From: Thermoplasma sp. Kam2015
GTDB taxonomy: Archaea; Thermoplasmatota; Thermoplasmata; Thermoplasmatales; Thermoplasmataceae
Reading direction: 5' to 3'
Assembly (NCBI RefSeq): GCF_003205235.1
Contig: NZ_QJSM01000020.1
Span: 1 to 64,000, forward strand
DNA length: 64,000 nucleotides
The position numbers and the translations under genes were made by a program. Below are positions 5,598-15,748 of the stretch, in pieces. The first letter of the stretch is position 1, and the number at the start of each line of letters is the position of its first letter. The notes beneath the pieces are model-generated. The model searched no databases. It saw only the letters and a program-made list of their open reading frames with translations, and was not told the DNA's origin.

Positions 5598-6182
5598 ATG
5601 AATAGAAGAATAAGGGGAGATGTGGAAGAGAGGACGATGGATTATCTTGTGAAAAGGCCAGAGATATTCACGTTGCTCAATACCGGCATAGTCAATCTCA
5701 ATGGACTGGCAGCTCTCATAAGCAGAGAAAATGGAGATCTAAATCCGCTTTCGGTCAGGTCGGCGCTGCAGAAGATTATGAAAAGCGGAAGGATAACTGA
5801 TTATCGCAAGGCTACTGATGATCTTTTAAGGAAAAGCAAAGTGACTCTGCAGGATAAGGTATCCGTTATAACGGCCAAGAGGAAGCTAGATATGGATTTT
5901 CTCTCCGTAACGTTCCTTACGGATTCTGTGGTTTATATCGTCGATGAAACAAGATCCAAGAACATACCCCGGGATGCGAATGTTGAAAGGAATGTCAGCC
6001 TGATCCACATCTTTTCGCCCTATGACATAGTTTCCACCCCTGGTTTCGCGTTGAATGTTGTTCAGCGAATATACGCTGCGGGAATAAACATATTGCAGCT
6101 CATATCATGTTCCAATGAGACCATGATAGTCGTAAATAGGGAGGATGCAGTCAAGGCTTATTCTGCGCTGACAGCCTACTGA
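5598..6182 (+). CDS. putative ACT-domain transcriptional regulator
   Basis: The 194-residue protein has a basic, helical N-terminal half (about 1-85) that could be a winged helix. Its C-terminal half resembles aspartate-kinase-type ACT domains: VSLIHIFSPYDIVSTPGFALNVVQRIYAAGINILQLISCSNETMIVVNRED shows the pattern of promoter-like strand, 'TPGFALNVVQRIYAAGINI' helix, and 'ETMIVV' strand. ACT domains bind amino acids. It is divergent from argG-argH, so an amino-acid-sensing regulator of arginine synthesis is a reasonable inference. The DNA-binding part is only suggested by composition. A leaderless promoter precedes it. Confidence 0.6.
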   Translation: MNRRIRGDVEERTMDYLVKRPEIFTLLNTGIVNLNGLAALISRENGDLNPLSVRSALQKIMKSGRITDYRKATDDLLRKSKVTLQDKVSVITAKRKLDMDFLSVTFLTDSVVYIVDETRSKNIPRDANVERNVSLIHIFSPYDIVSTPGFALNVVQRIYAAGINILQLISCSNETMIVVNREDAVKAYSALTAY

Positions 6183-6350
6183 TCGAATTCATTATGCGGC
6201 CGTCATCTTTCTATCGGAATAACAGGATTAAGATCGACGGAGTCTGACAATCTTCGGTCACGGGCTCCACATCTCCTACAATTATGATATATCTTTTCAT
6301 TCAAGGTCTGTCGTCTCCTAAGTTTTCGATTCTTTATTGTTTTTCATTTG

Positions 6351-6386
6351 GTGAAGTTAGTTTAAAAAAATTTAAATAAACTTCAC
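6351..6386. promoter_or_regulatory. 36-bp palindromic operator over the cobalamin operon TATA box
   Basis: The sequence is a symmetric inverted repeat: GTGAAGTT (6351-6358), two bases, TTTAAA (6361-6366), AAAA, TTTAAA (6371-6376), two bases, AACTTCAC (6379-6386). The right half contains the box TTTAAATAA, centred about 26 bases before the ATG at 6400. A dimeric repressor bound here would block TBP, which suggests control by cobalt, B12 or redox state. The regulator is not evident in the window. Confidence 0.7.
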
Positions 6387-6399
6387 AATTCCATCATCC

Positions 6400-7032
6400 A
6401 TGATCATGGACATAAAACTCGATCGACATCCTCTGGTCTTCATAGGCCATGGGCATGAATTTGATGAGAAGATAGTGGCTTTTTCCCAAGAAGCTTCGAT
6501 CATCTATGCATTCACCGATGAGAGGATCGTCGATCCACATGTCTCAGTTGTCTCTGGGAAATTTGAGGATGGAATAGAGACCGTCAGGGATGTTAGGCCC
6601 ATCATCACCTTCATTTCCACCGAGGATGAGGTTCTAGACGCGCAGCTCGCCAGCATGGCATCTCTGTATTCAACCATGGTTTACATACCGGATCGCGTGA
6701 TGCTGAGCGATATAAATCTTTGCGCGTTGATAAAGAAAGGGCCTGTATCGATAGGCATATCGACAAAGGGGAAGAGTCCGGCTATGACCGTCATGATAAA
6801 GAAGAGGCTCAATGCATGCATCGATAAATATGGCATAATCACCAGAGAGGATGCCCTGATGATAGATTTTATCTCCAGAAACAGAACTAAGATAATTTCA
6901 GGAATACGTGACAGAAGAAGGCGCCGCGTTATGATGTACAAGATCGCCGTTGACAGGAACATGAGAAGCATGGTTGCATCTGGTACAGGTGATCCGGATA
7001 AGATGCTGGAAAGTCTGATCGATGGACAATGA
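6400..7032 (+). CDS. precorrin-2 dehydrogenase / ferrochelatase-like (CysG N-terminal, Met8 family)
   Basis: The 210-residue product resembles siroheme synthase N-terminal domains, which oxidise precorrin-2 to sirohydrochlorin with NAD and may insert metal. The best landmark is ISTKGKSPAMTVMIKKRL (about residues 124-141), matching the family's ISTGGKSPxLxxxIRxRIE. The N-terminal dinucleotide loop is unusual: FIGHGHEFDEKIVAF replaces the normal VVGGGxVAxRK. A catalytic Asp near FISTEDEVLDAQ matches the family's ATDDxxLN region in place. It heads the corrin operon and overlaps cobA by 4 bases. The start at 6400 fits a leaderless transcript; 6406 is an alternative. The role may be dehydrogenation plus cobalt or iron insertion, since no separate cobaltochelatase gene is seen. 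Confidence 0.75.
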   Translation: MIMDIKLDRHPLVFIGHGHEFDEKIVAFSQEASIIYAFTDERIVDPHVSVVSGKFEDGIETVRDVRPIITFISTEDEVLDAQLASMASLYSTMVYIPDRVMLSDINLCALIKKGPVSIGISTKGKSPAMTVMIKKRLNACIDKYGIITREDALMIDFISRNRTKIISGIRDRRRRRVMMYKIAVDRNMRSMVASGTGDPDKMLESLIDGQ

Positions 7033-7769
7033 CAGCAAGAAAATACTATATAATAGGCGTTGGACCGGGCGATCCAGATCTAATGAGTATTCGCGCCGTC
7101 AGATCTATTCAGGAATCGGATCTCATACTCTACGACAGCCTTATTCCAGAAGATATCCTGATCCGTTTCTGCTCAGAAAAGAAGAAGATCCATGTGGGTC
7201 ACAGATCCTCAAAGGACCATCATGACATCATGGAGAGGATATCGGACATCCTCGATAATACTGAAGATGCTGTGGTTGCCCATCTTAAATCCGGCGATCC
7301 TGCAGTATTTTCTCATCTTCATGAGGAGGTCGATATGCTGGTTCATCGCGGTATAAGCTATGAGATCGTTCCCGGCATATCATCGGCGATTGCCGTGCCA
7401 GAGATGGCCGGAATCGCACTTACTGGACGGGGCTTTTCGGAATCGTTCACCATAGTGTCCGCGAGTGATGCCAGCGGAAATTTCAATGAAGCTGAGATAA
7501 GATCGGCTATGGCTGCATCAGGATCCGTGGTCATAATGATGGGTGCGAGATATCTGGGAAAGATCAGGGATCTTCTGGTTTCAATGGATTACCGAAAGCC
7601 TGTCGTCGTAATAGAGAACGGAACGAGGCCGGATCAGAATGTGTCGTTCTTCAGACAGCCGCTGGATATAACTGCAGAGTATGCAAATTCACCAGCATTG
7701 ATAGTGACCGGTCAGATCATCAACCTCAGGGAGGTGGGTAAGAAAGATGAGGATAAGATACGAAATTGA
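7029..7769 (+). CDS. cobA: uroporphyrinogen-III C-methyltransferase
   Basis: The 246-residue enzyme transfers two methyl groups from S-adenosylmethionine to C2 and C7 of uroporphyrinogen III, giving precorrin-2. Seen: the N-terminal loop VGPGDPDLMSIRA, the SAM-site segment HLKSGDPAVF (family RLKGGDPFVFGRG), the loop PGISSAIAVPEMAGIALTGRGFS, and a C-terminal PALIVTGQI strand. Length and motifs are normal for SUMT. The product feeds both siroheme and cobalamin. It overlaps its upstream neighbour by 4 bases and cbiC by 23, so the genes are translationally coupled. Confidence 0.93.
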   Translation: MTARKYYIIGVGPGDPDLMSIRAVRSIQESDLILYDSLIPEDILIRFCSEKKKIHVGHRSSKDHHDIMERISDILDNTEDAVVAHLKSGDPAVFSHLHEEVDMLVHRGISYEIVPGISSAIAVPEMAGIALTGRGFSESFTIVSASDASGNFNEAEIRSAMAASGSVVIMMGARYLGKIRDLLVSMDYRKPVVVIENGTRPDQNVSFFRQPLDITAEYANSPALIVTGQIINLREVGKKDEDKIRN

Positions 7770-8523
7770 ATTTGATTCCGGATCCATGCGCCTGAGTTCT
7801 CCAAACCATTCCGCGGTGATAAACATGGGATTGAATGCAGTGATTGCCGGAGATCTCGAAAAAATCATATTTGACGCTATATATGCCGAAGTTCTGAATC
7901 AGATGGGAAGCGATCGTAGGGAACATGATTTCAAGATGATAGAGAAGAGAAGCTTTTCCATAATAGATTCGATGCTTCCACGGGATATCGGATATCCCAT
8001 GCGCCATATAGTCATGAAGATTGTGCATTCCACGGCGGACTTCGCCATGGTAAATCTTGTGAGATACAGCGAAGGATTCTTCCAATCCATGGTCTCCAGG
8101 TTGAGAGCAGGAACTACTATAATCGTGGACAGCGAGATGGTGAGGTCCGGCATATACGCTAAACCGGTTCTCAATAAGAACAAGATCGCCTGTTATCTGA
8201 ATGATGATGAAACCGCGGAAATAGCGGAACAGAGAGGTATAACGAGATCCGCCGCTGGGATCATGAAGGGTCTTCTGAAGAACAGGAATTCGGCCATCGT
8301 GATTGGTAATTCTCCAACTGCGCTTGATCAGGCGATAACGATGATCGAAGAAAATGGATGGTATGACGTACCTGTAGTCGGTGTACCCGTCGGATTCGTG
8401 AATGCAAAGAGCGTGAAGGATCGACTCATGTCAAGCTCAATCGAGCATTTCACGGTCTATGGCCACCGTGGTGGTAGTTCCGTAGCAGCTTCCATAGTGA
8501 ATGGATTTGGGAGGTTTCTGTGA
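7747..8523 (+). CDS. cbiC: cobalt-precorrin-8 methylmutase
   Basis: The 258-residue enzyme moves the C11 methyl group to C12, giving cobyrinate. The conserved catalytic histidine lies in VYGHRGGSSVAASIVN (His240), and the family start IEKRSFSIIDSML is at about residue 67. CbiC proteins are usually about 200-210 residues. This one has an extra N-terminal segment of about 65 residues (RIRYEIEFDSGSM...), whose function I cannot name. The start overlaps cobA by 23 bases, and no better internal ATG with a ribosome site is evident. The stop overlaps the cbiH start as TGATG. Confidence 0.9.
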   Translation: MRIRYEIEFDSGSMRLSSPNHSAVINMGLNAVIAGDLEKIIFDAIYAEVLNQMGSDRREHDFKMIEKRSFSIIDSMLPRDIGYPMRHIVMKIVHSTADFAMVNLVRYSEGFFQSMVSRLRAGTTIIVDSEMVRSGIYAKPVLNKNKIACYLNDDETAEIAEQRGITRSAAGIMKGLLKNRNSAIVIGNSPTALDQAITMIEENGWYDVPVVGVPVGFVNAKSVKDRLMSSSIEHFTVYGHRGGSSVAASIVNGFGRFL

Positions 8524-9275
8524 TGTATGGAAAAATATACATAATTGGCATTGGCCCGGGCAGCCCCGATCACATGACGCCCGCGGCAAGGAAGGCGTTA
8601 GCCAGCAGCGATGTTATAATCGGTTTTTCGCTGTACGTCTCCTTCGTGAGGGAAGAATTCCCGGAAAAGAAATACGAGATCAGTGGAATGCAGAACGAGC
8701 TTGCAAGAGCAAGGCGTGCAATCGATCTGGCGGATCAGGGTATGACCGTTGCGGTCATATCAAGTGGCGACGCAGGAATATACGGTATAGCGGCACCAAC
8801 ACTGGAGATGATGCAGAGAAGGGGATCCAATGTTGAAGTGGAAATAGTGCCGGGTATTTCAGCATTATCTTCTGCCGCCTCTCTCCTTGGATCTCCGTTG
8901 ACAAACGACTTTGCGGTCATAAGCATGAGCGATCTGCTGACACCTCTCGAGGTTGTAATGAAACGTGCTGAGATCTTTGCGAAATCAGACATAGTCACCG
9001 TGATATACAACCCGCGAGGTTCCAGATTTCCAGACAACCTTAGGAAGGCAATAGACATATTCGCAAAGTACAGAGATCCGAACACGGTGGTCGGTATAGT
9101 TAGGAATGCCTACAGGGAAGGCCAGTCTGTTAAAATAACGAAGCTCTCTGAGATCGTCCCGGAGGAGATCGATATGCTGACTACCGTCATTGTGGGTAAT
9201 TCTGAGACCTTCGTTTACAGAGATATGATGGCTACTAGGCGTGGATACAGCAAGAAATACAGCATCGACGCATGA
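8523..9275 (+). CDS. cbiH: cobalt-precorrin-3 C17-methyltransferase
   Basis: The 250-residue SAM-dependent enzyme methylates C17 and contracts the ring. It has the corrin methyltransferase fold: GIGPGSPDHMTPAARKAL at the N-terminus, the CbiH/CobJ-specific segment VISSGDAGIYGIA (family VVSSGDPGIYGMA) and VTVIYNPRGSRFP (family VxLYNPxSxxR). I start at the ATG at 8523, which overlaps the cbiC stop as TGATG. A GTG at 8520 would add one residue. Next gene cbiD overlaps by 4 bases. Confidence 0.92.
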   Translation: MYGKIYIIGIGPGSPDHMTPAARKALASSDVIIGFSLYVSFVREEFPEKKYEISGMQNELARARRAIDLADQGMTVAVISSGDAGIYGIAAPTLEMMQRRGSNVEVEIVPGISALSSAASLLGSPLTNDFAVISMSDLLTPLEVVMKRAEIFAKSDIVTVIYNPRGSRFPDNLRKAIDIFAKYRDPNTVVGIVRNAYREGQSVKITKLSEIVPEEIDMLTTVIVGNSETFVYRDMMATRRGYSKKYSIDA

Positions 9276-10393
9276 CTCAGTCAAATCCATTCCAGCAGTA
9301 TGGCATAACCAGCGGATCGGCTGCTGCAGCCGCAGCGAAAGCGTCCGCTCTGGCCGCAGGCGGATCGGTCGTGGAATACGTCGGTATACCGACGCCGATA
9401 GGCATCAGGATAGAGATAAGGGTTGAGATGATGAGACAGCTGAAGACCGGATCAGGTATGGCCCGCGTCAGGAAGTTCTCCGGGGACAACCCGGACATTC
9501 TCAATAACGCGGTATTTCAGAGCGTGGCAGTTCTTCGTTCAGAGGAGGGAATACGTATACATGCAGTGAAAGGTATAGGGAAGGTTGTTTCAGGCGGGCT
9601 TCCTGTTGGCCAAGGTGAATACGCCATCAACCCCATCGCTAGGATGATGATCGAGAATGCAGTTCGCGAAGCGATATCGTCAGGAGGCTGCGACATATTT
9701 CTGTCCGTTCCTGAAGGAGAGGATCTTGCCAGATCCACGATGAATCCAAGGGTCGGAATAATCGGCGGAATATCCATAATTGGAACGACAGGAATCGAGG
9801 AGCCAGTGTCCGGCCCAGATTACTCATCCCATCTTGAATATCTTCTGAAGACAGGCAGGTGCGCCAGCAGCGTAGCAGTATTGTGTCCAGGAAATACCGC
9901 CCTTAAATTTGCGGAAATGTATCTTACACTGCCACCGTCCTCCTTCATTCTGATCGGTGATAGAGTAGGGGACGCAATAACACTTGCTCTAAAAAATGGA
10001 TTCAGAGAGATACTGATATTTGGCCTGCCGGGAAAACTTGTCAAGCTTGCCGCCGGAGTGACGAATACGCACAGTCGCATTGCAGATGCGAGGTTCGAGA
10101 CCATAGCAGCCTATGCGGCTCTGGTGGGGGTGAGCAGGGATACGATTGCGAAAGTATTGGATTCAAACACAGTTGAAAGCGCATTTTCAGTTCTGCGTGA
10201 TGAGGGCGTGATGGATGAGGTAGCCAATCTATTGGTGGATCGCATAGTGCAGAGGCTGCATACTCTTTTCGGAGAGAGTACAGCATTCTCATGCATAATG
10301 ATCGATTCGCATGGAAAGCCGTATGCACTGCGTTTGAGCGACGGTATAAAGGCTCTGGTGAGTAAATATGGATCTGAAGCAATGGGATTATGA
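9272..10393 (+). CDS. cbiD: cobalt-precorrin-5B C1-methyltransferase
   Basis: The 373-residue product matches CbiD in length and landmarks: the N-terminal YGITSGSAAAAAAKASALA (family GYTTGxCAAAAAKAA), VKGIGKVVSGGLPVGQGEYAINPIARMMI (family GxGVVTKPGLPVxxGExAINPVPRxMI), and GIIGGISIIGTTGIEEPVS (family GIVGGISILGTTGIVxPMS). It methylates C1 in the anaerobic cobalt-early route, so its presence shows that route rather than the aerobic one. The 3' end overlaps cbiT by 26 bases. Confidence 0.95.
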   Translation: MTQSNPFQQYGITSGSAAAAAAKASALAAGGSVVEYVGIPTPIGIRIEIRVEMMRQLKTGSGMARVRKFSGDNPDILNNAVFQSVAVLRSEEGIRIHAVKGIGKVVSGGLPVGQGEYAINPIARMMIENAVREAISSGGCDIFLSVPEGEDLARSTMNPRVGIIGGISIIGTTGIEEPVSGPDYSSHLEYLLKTGRCASSVAVLCPGNTALKFAEMYLTLPPSSFILIGDRVGDAITLALKNGFREILIFGLPGKLVKLAAGVTNTHSRIADARFETIAAYAALVGVSRDTIAKVLDSNTVESAFSVLRDEGVMDEVANLLVDRIVQRLHTLFGESTAFSCIMIDSHGKPYALRLSDGIKALVSKYGSEAMGL

Positions 10394-10970
10394 TGTCTAC
10401 GGGATCCCTGACGAGGTTTTTTTCAGATCGGAGGGCATACCGATGACGAAGAGGGAAATACGCATACTTAGCCTTTCGAATCTGATGCTCAGGCGTGGAA
10501 TGAGCGTCATGGATATAGGCTGTGGATCTGGATCGATGACCGTTGAGATATCCAACATCGTGGGTCCGGATGGCAGCGTGATGGGCATAGACATCAGAGA
10601 GGATGCCGTTGATCTGGCCGCTAAAAACTGTGCTGCACTATGTCGCTACAGAAATTACACTGTGGAGATGGCCGATATTTATGACTTTCGAGGCGATAGA
10701 AAGTTCGATGCTGTATTCGTCGGCGGCGGAACGGTCGAAATAGGGAGACTCTTCGATAAGATAACTGAGATAACACATGGTGGTTCCAGGGTTGTTGTGA
10801 ACGCGATCCAGCTTCACACAGCTTATCAATCCCTGGACGAGATGATTAGGCGTGGATACAGCGATGTGGATGTTGTTCAGGCGATGATAAGCAAGGGCAT
10901 GCGCACATCAGAGGGATATGCTATGATAGCGAGGAATCCAATCTTTGTAATATCGGGTGCATCCCCATGA
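10368..10970 (+). CDS. cbiT: cobalt-precorrin-6B C15-methyltransferase (decarboxylating)
   Basis: The 200-residue protein is a class I (Rossmann) methyltransferase. It has GIPDEVFFRSEGIPMTKREIRILSLSNL at the start, as in CbiT, the SAM motif VMDIGCGSGSMTVEIS, and DAVFVGGGTVEIGRL after it. It methylates C15 and removes the C12 acetate carboxyl. In many bacteria CbiT is fused to CbiE (CobL); here it stands alone and CbiE is fused to CbiG. It overlaps cbiD by 26 bases and cbiL by 4. Confidence 0.93.
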   Translation: MDLKQWDYDVYGIPDEVFFRSEGIPMTKREIRILSLSNLMLRRGMSVMDIGCGSGSMTVEISNIVGPDGSVMGIDIREDAVDLAAKNCAALCRYRNYTVEMADIYDFRGDRKFDAVFVGGGTVEIGRLFDKITEITHGGSRVVVNAIQLHTAYQSLDEMIRRGYSDVDVVQAMISKGMRTSEGYAMIARNPIFVISGASP

Positions 10971-11647
10971 AGATGTACGTCGTCGGTCTTGGTCCCGGGG
11001 ATCCCGAGTACATAACCGTGAAAGCTGTAAACGTTCTGAAACAGAGCGATATCATATTCGTACCTGGATCCTCCGCTGATCGCAGCATCTCGAAGAACAT
11101 AATAAGGGATCTTGCGGAAAGGCACGGCTTTTCAGATACTGAAACGGTTGATCTGGAATTCCCCATGACCAGAGATCGAGAGTTCAACAGGATGGCATGG
11201 GAAAGGAACGTTTCAATGATAATTGGAGCGGTTTCCTCTGGCAAAACGGTATCCTATGCTGTACTTGGCAATCCAACGCTTTACAGCACATTCAGCAACA
11301 TACTCGAGGACGTGAGGAAACAGGGCGTGGAGGTTGTATTTGTGGCTGGTGTTAGTTCCCTGGACGCCTGTTCATCAGTTGCAGGCATGAATCTTGCGAA
11401 GGGCGACGAGAGCATAGCCATCATAACGTATAATGATTTCATGAAGCGGCAGCGGCTTGACTTTGATACCGTCATAATCATGAAGGTTCCCGGCGGATCC
11501 GCCATGATTGAGGAGGCCAGAAGGCGGTTTCCAGAATTCAGATCATGCGTCTATGCTAGGAGATGCACGATGCCACAGCAGATCATAAGAGATCAGCCAG
11601 GGGAAGATCAGGCCGATTATTTTTCGATGATCATATTGAGGAGGTGA
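10967..11647 (+). CDS. cbiL: cobalt-precorrin-2 C20-methyltransferase
   Basis: The 226-residue enzyme belongs to the corrin methyltransferase family: MYVVGLGPGDPEYITVKAVNVLKQSDIIFVPGS at the N-terminus is typical of CbiL/CobI, and VSYAVLGNPTLYSTFS matches the CbiL VaflxxGDPxxYSTf segment. It adds the C20 methyl group to cobalt-precorrin-2. It overlaps cbiT by 4 bases; cbiF follows after 4 bases. Confidence 0.92.
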   Translation: MKMYVVGLGPGDPEYITVKAVNVLKQSDIIFVPGSSADRSISKNIIRDLAERHGFSDTETVDLEFPMTRDREFNRMAWERNVSMIIGAVSSGKTVSYAVLGNPTLYSTFSNILEDVRKQGVEVVFVAGVSSLDACSSVAGMNLAKGDESIAIITYNDFMKRQRLDFDTVIIMKVPGGSAMIEEARRRFPEFRSCVYARRCTMPQQIIRDQPGEDQADYFSMIILRR

Positions 11648-11651
11648 TGAA

Positions 11652-12428
11652 ATGGCGAAGGTATACATTGTTGGTGCCGGGCCAGGAGATCCTGATCTCC
11701 TGACCGTCAAGGCAAGGAGAATAATAGAATCGTGTGATGTGATAATATACGCAGGATCTCTGGTGAATCCTGAGATTATAAAGCTCGCAAAGCCAGATGC
11801 GGAGGTTTACAACAGCGCTCAGCTTGACCTTGATCAGATCATGGGGATAATCAGGGAAGCATATGATCGTGGAAAAAACGTAGCAAGGGTTCATTCAGGC
11901 GATCCTCATATATATGGCGCGCTGAAGGATCAGACATCCGTTCTGGAGCAGCTTGGGATACCGTATGAGGTAATTCCTGGCGTGAGCGTCCTGACGTCTG
12001 CAGCGGCGTCGCTTGGCATAGAGCTCACGATGGACGGGATATCGCAGGCCGTGATCATAGCGAGAGGTTCCCTCAGGATACCTGTGCCTGAGAAGGAACA
12101 GATAAAGAATCTGGCCGCGCATGGAAGCACAATGGTCATATTCACTGGTATACACATAATAGATCGCATAGCGAAGGACCTTATGGATGGAGGTTACGAC
12201 CCAGAGACACCCGTTGGCGTTGTATATCGTTCGACATGGCCTGATGAGATCGTGATCAAAGGAAAACTCTCGAATATAGCATCGCTTGTCCATGAGAAGA
12301 GGATATACCGTACGGCCATCATAATCGTGGGCGATGTGGTTGATCCGAAGTTCGTCAGACACAGCAGACTTTACGATCCAGAGTACGTGCATTCATTCCG
12401 TGGTGGTAGGAATGCATCCGGCAGATAA
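11652..12428 (+). CDS. cbiF: cobalt-precorrin-4 C11-methyltransferase
   Basis: The 258-residue product carries the CbiF/CobM landmarks VYIVGAGPGDPDLLTVKARRII, VIIYAGSLVNPEI, VARVHSGDPHIYGALKDQ and PGVSVLTSAAASLGIELT. It methylates C11. The ATG at 11652 follows a GAGGTGATGAA ribosome site. Its 3' end overlaps the start I favour for cbiGE by 17 bases. Confidence 0.95.
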   Translation: MAKVYIVGAGPGDPDLLTVKARRIIESCDVIIYAGSLVNPEIIKLAKPDAEVYNSAQLDLDQIMGIIREAYDRGKNVARVHSGDPHIYGALKDQTSVLEQLGIPYEVIPGVSVLTSAAASLGIELTMDGISQAVIIARGSLRIPVPEKEQIKNLAAHGSTMVIFTGIHIIDRIAKDLMDGGYDPETPVGVVYRSTWPDEIVIKGKLSNIASLVHEKRIYRTAIIIVGDVVDPKFVRHSRLYDPEYVHSFRGGRNASGR

Positions 12429-14118
12429 CGTGAGAAAGGTCCTTATCGTATCTTTATCAAGATCCGGTGCAGAAGTTGCTGCTCGGCTCGCATCCAGGAT
12501 GAGATCGGAAGGCCTAGATGCTAGGGCATTCTGCAGATATGGTAATGAAGAATGCAGAAAACTGGACTCGTCGCTTAAGATATTTCTCATGGAGAATCTG
12601 CGCATGTACGATGCAGCCGTCATGGTAATGTCCCTTCCAGGTTTCTATAGGATCGCATCGGAGATCATGATAGAAAAGAACCATGATATTCCTATCGTGG
12701 TTGTGGACGATGCTTCAAGGTTCGCTGTAGCTGCTGCATCCGGTCATGCGGGCAATTCCAACGGCATCGCCTCATACGTTGCTGGCATCCTTGGATGCAC
12801 AGCCGTCATAACGGACGGAATAGAATCTACTGGAGGCATGTCCGTGGAGAACATAGCAAGGATTACCTACTCCAGCATTGCCAATCCGGAATGCATACTA
12901 ACGGTCAATGCGGCAATAGCCAACGGCGATAATGTGCCAGTTATATTCAGGTCTGAAAAGAGGAGAAAACTCAGGAGTATCTTCGAAGATCGCCAAAGCG
13001 AAGCATACGAGGATGGACCGGCCATAGTGATCACTGATAGGCCGGGTGATGCGGATAACGTATGCTATCTAATACCGGACGACATATCCATAGGCATCGG
13101 CTTCAATTCAAGGGCCGATGAGTCAGCGATGTCCAGCTGCATAGAGAACTTTTTTGATGAAGCCGGGCTCTCATGGGAGGATGTAGATTATATTTCGAGC
13201 ATAAAGGATATTCCGCCTGACATCATTGATGGTCGAAAAACAAGATTCATCAGGATCCAATTGGAGGATCTGAAGGCGATTGATCAGAACGAGATGACAC
13301 ACAATTCACCGAAGGCCATGGAGGTATTTGGTATCCCCGGCGTGGCTGAACCCTGCGCACTTTATTCACTTGGGCCGGCGTCGAGGCTCTTCTATCCGTT
13401 CAGGCCATGCCAAGGAAAGGTAACCATAGCTGCGGCGAGGAGAAGGAAACTATCTGACGGGTTCATATCATTTGTAGGTGTGGGGCCGTCCGATCCGGAT
13501 CTCATGACGATGAAGGCGAGAAAAGCTATAGTTTCCGCTGACATAGTGGCTGGATATGCGACACCACTTGATATAGCCAGAGGCCTCATATGGAACAAAC
13601 CCAAGGTCGTGTTCCACTGGAAGGATCAGCAGAGATATGTGGACCAGATCGTATCGCTGTATAGACAGGGATACAGGATCGCCTATCTTTTCACTGGGGA
13701 TGCGTGTTTCACTGAATCGGAGCTCATGAAAAGATTCACGGGATCCTGCCGCAAATTTGAGATAATTCCCGGGATAAGCTCCGTTCAGGCAGCATGCAGT
13801 ATCACCGGAATGACCCTTGAGATAGCAGGAATCGTCTCATTTCATGTTACGGGAGACATTGAAACACGAAAGAAAGACCTCATCGAAGCCCTGTCAGATA
13901 AGGGTGGTGCTATCGTCATACCGAGGCCATACGATTTCATGCCAAGAGATATCGCTGCATTCCTTTCAGATAAAGGCTTTGGAGATCTTCCCGCAACAGT
14001 GATCGAGAAGGCGACTTCATCCGAAGAGCGCAGATTCGCCGCTCGCATTCGAGAACTTAAGGATATGGAATTCTCCGATCTTTCAATAATGGTCATAGGC
14101 GAACCGGTGATCAGATGA
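12412..14118 (+). CDS. cbiGE: CbiG-CbiE fusion: cobalt-precorrin-5A hydrolase plus C5-methyltransferase
   Basis: Two enzymes are joined in one 568-residue chain. Residues about 1-340 are CbiG, which opens the delta-lactone and releases acetaldehyde: DDASRFAVAAASGHAGNSNGIASYVA (family G.fvIsLLSGHxGGANxLA), then GIGFNSRADE and the late segment GIPGVAEPCAL. Residues about 350-568 are CbiE, the C5-methyltransferase: FVGVGPSDPDLMTMKA, YLFTGDACFTES and PGISSVQAACSITGM. I use the ATG at 12412 (GGTGG upstream); a reading frame from 12334 exists but would overlap cbiF by 95 bases. This fusion order differs from the common CbiE-CbiT fusion. A joint active pathway step (5A hydrolysis, C5 methylation) would make physical linkage sensible. 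Confidence 0.88.
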   Translation: MHPADNVRKVLIVSLSRSGAEVAARLASRMRSEGLDARAFCRYGNEECRKLDSSLKIFLMENLRMYDAAVMVMSLPGFYRIASEIMIEKNHDIPIVVVDDASRFAVAAASGHAGNSNGIASYVAGILGCTAVITDGIESTGGMSVENIARITYSSIANPECILTVNAAIANGDNVPVIFRSEKRRKLRSIFEDRQSEAYEDGPAIVITDRPGDADNVCYLIPDDISIGIGFNSRADESAMSSCIENFFDEAGLSWEDVDYISSIKDIPPDIIDGRKTRFIRIQLEDLKAIDQNEMTHNSPKAMEVFGIPGVAEPCALYSLGPASRLFYPFRPCQGKVTIAAARRRKLSDGFISFVGVGPSDPDLMTMKARKAIVSADIVAGYATPLDIARGLIWNKPKVVFHWKDQQRYVDQIVSLYRQGYRIAYLFTGDACFTESELMKRFTGSCRKFEIIPGISSVQAACSITGMTLEIAGIVSFHVTGDIETRKKDLIEALSDKGGAIVIPRPYDFMPRDIAAFLSDKGFGDLPATVIEKATSSEERRFAARIRELKDMEFSDLSIMVIGEPVIR

Positions 14119-14207
14119 TCATCGTATCGCATAGGGACGAATTGAACGAATATGTCATTGCGAAGACAATATATGAAAAAATTAATCGGTTTATACTGGA
14201 TCGGTAA
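14115..14207 (+). CDS. possible 30-residue protein coupled to cbiGE
   Basis: An ATG at 14115 overlaps the cbiGE stop as ATGA, the same coupling used throughout this operon. It opens a frame of 30 residues beginning MIIVSHRDELNEY and ending NRFILDR. I recognise no family. The overlap geometry is the only support, so it may be chance. Confidence 0.3.
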   Translation: MIIVSHRDELNEYVIAKTIYEKINRFILDR

Positions 14208-14283
14208 TCATGTAGGTTCCCATGGTTGATTGGATCGATAGAAATATTTTTACGAATTTAGTATCAATATTACGAAAACAAAG

Positions 14284-14298
14284 ATTTATCTATTTATG
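14284..14298 (+). promoter_or_regulatory. TATA box of the permease at 14315
   Basis: ATTTATCTATTTATG is centred about 25 bases before the ATG at 14315, which fits a leaderless promoter separate from the cobalamin operon. Confidence 0.4.
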
Positions 14299-14314
14299 AT
14301 TTTTCAGGCCCATC

Positions 14315-15748
14315 ATGGCAAATGTTGTTAATCCTAGCGCAAGGGAGATTGGCACCTGGGATCTTGTCTTTCAGGGTCTTGGACAGATCACGCCCATAAC
14401 GATACTCTCAGGACTCATAGTTAGTATAGTTGGGCTCTCTGGCATAAACGCACCGCTGGCTATGATCATATCATTCTTGGCTGTGGTTATGGCAGCGAAC
14501 ACGATATATCAGTTTTCAGGGATCATCAGCCATTCCGGCGGCTACTATTCCTACGTGGAATACGGCCTCGGAAAACATATTGGAAAGTTCACGGGTCTCC
14601 AGTACCTTCTGTATCAGGCATCCAATCTTGCATTGGAATACCTGATAGTGGTTTGGGGATTCTCTAAGTCCTTGAACTATGCCTTTGGGACTGCATTTCC
14701 TGAATGGACCGGCATAGTCTGGATAGGATCGATGATGGCTCTTTCATACATCCTCATGCGTATGGGGGCAAAACCTTCTCTAAAACTTGCACTGGTTCTC
14801 GGATCGATACAGGTGTCATTTGTGATCCTTCTTTCCTTCATAATAATTCCATCTGCACCAGACAACACAGCTTCTGCTTTCATTCCGTCAGCTGGATCTG
14901 GATGGACCGGAGTATTCCTCGGATTCATAGTGGGCGGGTATCTAGCTTTCGCCGGCTATGGCTCAGTGGTTCCCATGGGCGAGGAAGCTAGATCACCAAG
15001 AAAGACCATAAAAAAGGCGATAATCGCCATAGTTGTGATTGCTGGAATTGTATTCGTGATGGGATCCTACGCCATGATCGTCGGGTTTGGCATCGGCAAT
15101 CTCGGCAATTTCTCATCTGCGGTGATACCAGGTTTGATCGTTGCCAGGAGACTCACAGGCATAGGCGGATCAATAATATTCATTTTGATAAGTACATTCC
15201 TGTCAACATACGGGACTGTCATCGGCATGGGAATGCCCATGACACGTGTGATGTATGCACTGGGGAGGGATGGTGTGCTTCCAGAGAAGATCGGATATCG
15301 AGACGGAAGGGCCGTACCAGTGAAAAGCGTTGACCTCACCTATGCCATAACCGCGGTCTCGGCAGCTGCACTCGGTCTCTACTTCTATCTAGCAGATGGT
15401 TTCTATCTTGGCCTTTATTATGCGTGGGTAATATTCGGGACGATCGCAACTCTCTCAACGTTACTGATACACATGCTTGTGAACACATCCCTCTCCGTAT
15501 CCCATATCAGGACGCGAAGAGGAAATATTATGTTATGGGTGATACTGCCATCGGCCACTACGGTCTTGATGGGCATAGCATACTACTATTCTCTGTTGGG
15601 AATGTCAATGCCCTTCCTGATAGCGCCTCTGATATTCCTGGGATGGATCATTGTATCTATCATGATACTATATTTCAGAAGGAGCCGATATTCTAACATA
15701 GACTTTTCAGATATGGATAAAGCAATGAATTATGAGGCTGGTGCATAA
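14315..15748 (+). CDS. APC-superfamily amino acid permease
   Basis: The 477-residue protein has about 12 hydrophobic segments and the APC first-helix motif (FQGLGQITPITILSGLIVSIVGLSGINAPLA). The loop GYGSVVPMGEEARSPRKTIKKA matches the family's conserved EExxxPxRxxPRA loop. It should carry amino acids or amines into the cell by ion coupling. It is followed after 2 bases by an amidohydrolase, which suggests a linked uptake-and-hydrolysis pair. Substrate unknown. Confidence 0.88.
   Translation: MANVVNPSAREIGTWDLVFQGLGQITPITILSGLIVSIVGLSGINAPLAMIISFLAVVMAANTIYQFSGIISHSGGYYSYVEYGLGKHIGKFTGLQYLLYQASNLALEYLIVVWGFSKSLNYAFGTAFPEWTGIVWIGSMMALSYILMRMGAKPSLKLALVLGSIQVSFVILLSFIIIPSAPDNTASAFIPSAGSGWTGVFLGFIVGGYLAFAGYGSVVPMGEEARSPRKTIKKAIIAIVVIAGIVFVMGSYAMIVGFGIGNLGNFSSAVIPGLIVARRLTGIGGSIIFILISTFLSTYGTVIGMGMPMTRVMYALGRDGVLPEKIGYRDGRAVPVKSVDLTYAITAVSAAALGLYFYLADGFYLGLYYAWVIFGTIATLSTLLIHMLVNTSLSVSHIRTRRGNIMLWVILPSATTVLMGIAYYYSLLGMSMPFLIAPLIFLGWIIVSIMILYFRRSRYSNIDFSDMDKAMNYEAGA

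Follow-up and report, generated by a model that had tools for sequence, protein, structure and literature searches.

What does a palindrome laid over the promoter of a corrin (cbi) operon do in an archaeon of the genus Thermoplasma? In many bacteria the B12 genes are switched by an RNA, the cobalamin riboswitch, and little is established about the corresponding control of B12 synthesis and uptake in archaea. The element that we consider lies at 6351 to 6386 (+ strand) of the window, that is, the whole stretch of 64,000 nucleotides of Thermoplasma sp. Kam2015 DNA that was analysed, and re-reading the sequence returns the letters given in the initial annotation, GTGAAGTTAGTTTAAAAAAATTTAAATAAACTTCAC. 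It overlaps the promoter of the cbi operon, it is conserved, and its motif is found again at the promoters of NiCoT and btuF genes. With the same site recurring before cobalt-uptake and probable B12-uptake genes of related archaea, it is most likely the binding site of a repressor of the B12 genes.

We begin with the surroundings of the element. The first gene of the operon (6400 to 7032, + strand) encodes a precorrin-2 dehydrogenase-like protein of the CysG N-terminal type (Pfam Sirohm_synth_M; NCBIfam CysG below its cut-off). It is followed on the same strand (7029 to 14118) by the remaining corrin genes, identified with Pfam and NCBIfam as, in order, a CobA-type methyltransferase, CbiC, CbiH, CbiD, CbiT, CbiL, CbiF and a CbiG-CbiE fusion; this last gene (12334 to 14118, +) joins CbiG, the cobalt-precorrin-5A hydrolase, to CbiE, the C5-methyltransferase. 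The intergenic gap before the operon measures 217 bases, as had been stated. Within the gap a probable TATA box, TTTAAATA, lies at 6371 to 6378 (+), as judged from its sequence, its position relative to the ATG and the structure of archaeal promoters, and 21 bases separate its end from the ATG at 6400. The first gene is probably leaderless or has a very short leader, as far as can be read from the sequence, and its transcript would start at about 6400. On the other side of the gap, between an argininosuccinate synthase-like gene and the corrin operon, lies the gene of a 194-residue ACT-domain protein (5598 to 6182, +) that is probably amino-acid-linked.

The symmetry of the element is lower than was first claimed. 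It had been described as a perfect symmetry with 32 of 36 positions mirrored; we count 14 of 18 pairs, or 28 of 36 positions, the asymmetry of the central AAAA adding to that of the two 2-base steps. As an inverted repeat it has arms of 16 bp, complementary at 14 of 16 positions, and a spacer of 4 nt. Judged by symmetry alone it is the top 36-bp palindrome of the window, and its full 36-bp pattern, with up to three mismatches, has a single occurrence in the window's own genome. Equally symmetric places number 11 in the 1.56 Mb of T. acidophilum, so about 0.45 would be expected per 64 kb by chance, a frequency that would suit a chance palindrome in an AT-rich promoter. The palindrome taken alone is barely beyond chance and is weak evidence; it is conservation that makes the case convincing.

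The next question is "does the palindrome stand before the orthologous operons of other species?" The search set contains five Thermoplasma genomes, among them T. acidophilum (1,564,906 bases) and T. volcanium (1,584,804 bases) as single contigs. The first operon gene has orthologues in each of the five and in another genus (G010). The site, whose presence before such operons the initial annotation had made decisive for its reading, is found in every case upstream of the cbi operon. It reads GTGAAGTTAATTTAAAAAAATTTAAGTAAACTTCAT in T. acidophilum, GTTAAGTAAACTTACTAAAGTTTAAATATACTTTAG in T. volcanium and GTGAAGTTAATTTAAAAAAATTTAAATTGACTTCAT in G002, to which the copy in G003 is identical, and in the Thermoplasma genomes its end is about 13 to 14 bp from the start codon. 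The window and T. acidophilum agree at 33 of the 36 bases of the site, against 24 of 100 (aligned without gaps) just upstream of it, which is the chance level.

To look for further members of a regulon, we scanned whole genomes. For the first scan of the T. acidophilum chromosome a matrix was made from three cbi sites; its best place is the cbi operon, and the second, well separated, lies 24 bp before the gene of a NiCoT nickel/cobalt permease (Pfam NicO, 1e-108). The NiCoT promoter carries the site in four species, namely T. acidophilum and all three others that possess the gene, which among the five Thermoplasma genomes is missing from T. volcanium. A second matrix, from the cbi and NiCoT sites, leaves the btuF and adenosyltransferase sites outside its training set. 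In both T. acidophilum and T. volcanium this matrix picked out a divergent btuF/btuC pair, at its btuF-like gene, and it also gave a weaker site before a PduO-type cobalamin adenosyltransferase gene of T. volcanium, where the matrix scan covered 1.19 of 1.58 Mb (to base 1194100), about three quarters of the chromosome. Every Thermoplasma genome of the set of five has the btuF site; the adenosyltransferase site is confined to T. volcanium and is absent from the corresponding promoters of the other four. With up to two mismatches, the pattern AAGTNNATTT-N10-AAATNNACTT has just three occurrences across the complete T. acidophilum genome and again just three in that of G002, each time at cbi, NiCoT and btuF; the motif thus recurs at promoters of the same pathway and is rare elsewhere in these two genomes. 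The regulatory reading of the promoter palindrome in the initial annotation gains support from the sites before the Ni/Co-permease and BtuF-like genes, with repression as its predicted sign. A match at 387225 in T. volcanium was rejected as a site since it lies inside a coding gene. Likewise set aside was a TGAAGT-N18-ACTTCA match before a chlorite-dismutase-like gene (L023), which has a different spacing and whose left half is formed by the end of the preceding ftsZ-like gene.

Several observations were made around these genes. In the window's own genome (G000) the NiCoT gene (1780 to 2805) and the btuF-like gene (13924 to 14874) each have the operator and are separated by about 11 kb of contig C37; the two genes with the operator are likewise about 11 kb apart on contig C39 of G003, and they are far apart in T. 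acidophilum. In two Thermoplasma genomes the adenosyltransferase promoter (L175 and L177) has, in place of the operator, an imperfect direct repeat, AAGTCArCTGTAAT ... AAGTTGrCTGTAAT, with its copies some 20 bp apart and located about 55 bp before the start. A second BtuF-like protein of about 260 residues is encoded beside elongation-factor genes in G001 (C1:475382-476173) and has relatives widely conserved in Thermoplasmatales; it appears to lack a signal peptide and is possibly a cytosolic corrinoid-binding protein.

On the alignment of the sites, a pair of 10-bp palindromic boxes with a spacing of 20 bp describes the element better than a single 36-bp palindrome does. Site alignment, column counts and pattern matches place the upstream box, AAGTTAGTTT (consensus AAGTnnAYTT), at 6354 to 6363 (+) and the downstream box, AAATAAACTT (consensus AARTnnACTT), at 6374 to 6383 (+), the two centres being 20 bp apart; in the window the downstream box overlaps the likely TATA box. 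Over 29 gene-associated sites, AAGT (columns 1 to 4), TT (9 and 10) and AA (21 and 22) are near-invariant, ACTT (27 to 30) is strong and the centre is variable, counts which describe the motif and are no independent test of it because the search pattern partly fixes them. Outside Thermoplasma either box is largely self-palindromic, as in G019 (AAGTCAACTT-CACTTTATTG-AAGTCAACTT).

How far does this architecture extend? When up to one mismatch is allowed, the refined pattern AAGTNNAYTT-N10-AARTNNACTT has 49 places in 41 Thermoplasmatales genomes. Of these, 28 are found upstream of a cbi, NiCoT or btuF gene, at a distance of no more than about 200 bp, the genes having been located independently by protein search; about 21 are without known gene context. 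Outside Thermoplasma, 16 of 35 places adjoin one of these genes, for which a naive binomial gives P about 1e-53, a value that ignores phylogeny and is obtained with a pattern refined after two of the counted sites (G011 and G027) had been seen. The gene-associated sites span many genera and at least two families, and the motif is conserved at orthologous promoters across species, at cbi and, in many genera, at btuF. At the same stringency 18 of 35 btuF-like genes have a site and roughly half are without, so the regulon is common in the order, not universal. Further good operator matches, which are candidates for extra regulon members or for the regulator gene, are found in G004 (T. volcanium; C1:1500040-1500069), G010 (C6:114290-114319), G012 (C1:1558524-1558553), G027 (C4:56047-56076) and G000 (C4:23196 and C41:12363).

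These comparisons bear on two of the alternatives. The gap from AAGT to ACTT is exactly 22 bp and is retained across species and genes, and the matches concentrate on cobalt and B12 genes. Conservation between species together with recurrence at functionally linked promoters is far beyond chance, and a chance palindrome, to which we give practically no credence, is already contradicted by the comparative data. The palindrome could also work as RNA, in the form of a hairpin, a riboswitch-like leader or a terminator, and the window copy does fold well (-11.9 kcal/mol, z -6.4). The sister sites at NiCoT and btuF, however, fold no better than shuffled sequences, or only marginally so, the centre of the site is asymmetric and variable, and the site lies upstream of the expected transcript start. 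No Rfam family matches it: a cmscan of 5800 to 7000 gives no cobalamin family up to E = 5, so that the leader contains no covariance-model match to this riboswitch, in accord with the original remark that none is visible in the gap. We therefore regard a function as RNA as very improbable.

We turn our attention to the protein that would bind the site. No regulator gene was found among the NikR, ribbon-helix-helix and B12-binding-domain proteins that were searched. The NikR_C domain (PF08753) is absent from all five Thermoplasma genomes and is detected in the controls and in five other Thermoplasmatales. The two conserved ribbon-helix-helix proteins are encoded beside PheT-like and FtsZ-like genes (names read from sequence) and have no B12 link. 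A search for the DxHxxG motif of a CarH-like B12-binding regulator, covering T. acidophilum and about three quarters of T. volcanium, finds only a protein of 146 to 148 residues that resembles a mutase small subunit. The ACT-domain protein next to the operon is not favoured because its gene does not adjoin cbi in T. volcanium. The operator itself is short, well defined and present at three gene sets, so that the regulator could be fished from a T. acidophilum extract.

The site might instead belong to a general metal regulator, a Ni, Fe or Co sensor of, for example, the DtxR type, with free metal ion as the effector and cbi among the targets. Nickel is a possible cargo of NiCoT, and a role with iron or haem is conceivable for the btuF-like gene; its protein scores below the NCBIfam cut-offs for every named substrate and resembles iron/haem-binding proteins too. 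We consider such a regulator unlikely, since the whole-genome matches in T. acidophilum and G002 include cbi, NiCoT and btuF only and no gene that is plainly for an iron or nickel enzyme, cobalt/corrin is what the targets share, and NikR is absent from the genus.

According to the model that we prefer, the element very probably serves as operator for a transcription factor by which Thermoplasmatales regulate their supply of corrinoids and cobalt, with repression as the predicted outcome. A centre-to-centre distance of 20 bp, close to two helical turns, suits the placing of two dimers, or of a single tetramer, along the same side of the helix. In the Thermoplasma promoters, which are predicted to have a short leader or none, the downstream box is merged with the TATA box, so that occupancy should exclude TBP/TFB. 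Two dimers, or a tetramer, would thus bind one DNA face over the BRE/TATA and keep TBP/TFB away, and cbi (corrin synthesis), NiCoT (cobalt uptake) and the btuF/btuC-like ABC transporter (probable corrinoid uptake) would be shut off. The likely signal would be sufficient corrinoid, or cobalt itself. The same overlap with BRE/TATA could also be taken for the site of an activator, or for an extension of the core promoter in which an upstream activating motif joins BRE/TATA, and which would raise transcription, the upstream box being placed where archaeal activators can bind. We give this arrangement little weight: the downstream box covers TATA and the next bases, a typical repressor position, and the motif is largely confined to B12/cobalt genes, not general strong promoters. 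The position over TATA suggests repression. A bolder form of the operator model, the truth of which we hold to be evenly balanced, has an order-wide, protein-run B12/cobalt regulon, in which an unrecognised archaeal regulator on twin TATA-fused AAGTnnACTT boxes senses corrinoid directly and replaces the bacterial B12 riboswitch.

How does this regulon compare with known systems? NikR operators have two half-sites about two helical turns apart, are bound by a tetramer and serve in the control of Ni/Co transporters. The Thermoplasmatales site likewise has two boxes about two helical turns apart at a Ni/Co transporter; its box sequence and spacing differ from what we take to be the E. coli NikR site. 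The gene set, corrin synthesis with cobalt uptake and B12 uptake, is similar to that of the bacterial cobalamin riboswitch (B12 element) regulons, and cobalt transporters under B12-element control are mentioned in PMC2667541. Unlike the RNA leader of those regulons, the Thermoplasma site is a DNA palindrome over the promoter and has no Rfam match. Zhang et al. 2009 (PMC2667541) recorded one NiCoT among four Thermoplasmales with its function unassigned, and noted that BtuFCD are hard to distinguish from iron/haem systems. The operator common to NiCoT and cbi points this NiCoT to cobalt/B12, and it likewise points the btuF/btuC-like transporter, whose substrate the sequence leaves open, to corrinoids. 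Among archaea, a predicted cobalamin regulon, CblR, is cited for Pyrococcus furiosus with its regulator listed as unknown (PMC10746257). This RegPrecise prediction from Thermococcales, a different order, resembles the present case in its description, as a predicted archaeal cobalamin regulon with no named factor. Against the literature, the older part of it covered in part, the Thermoplasmatales regulon appears to be new, though of a familiar kind.
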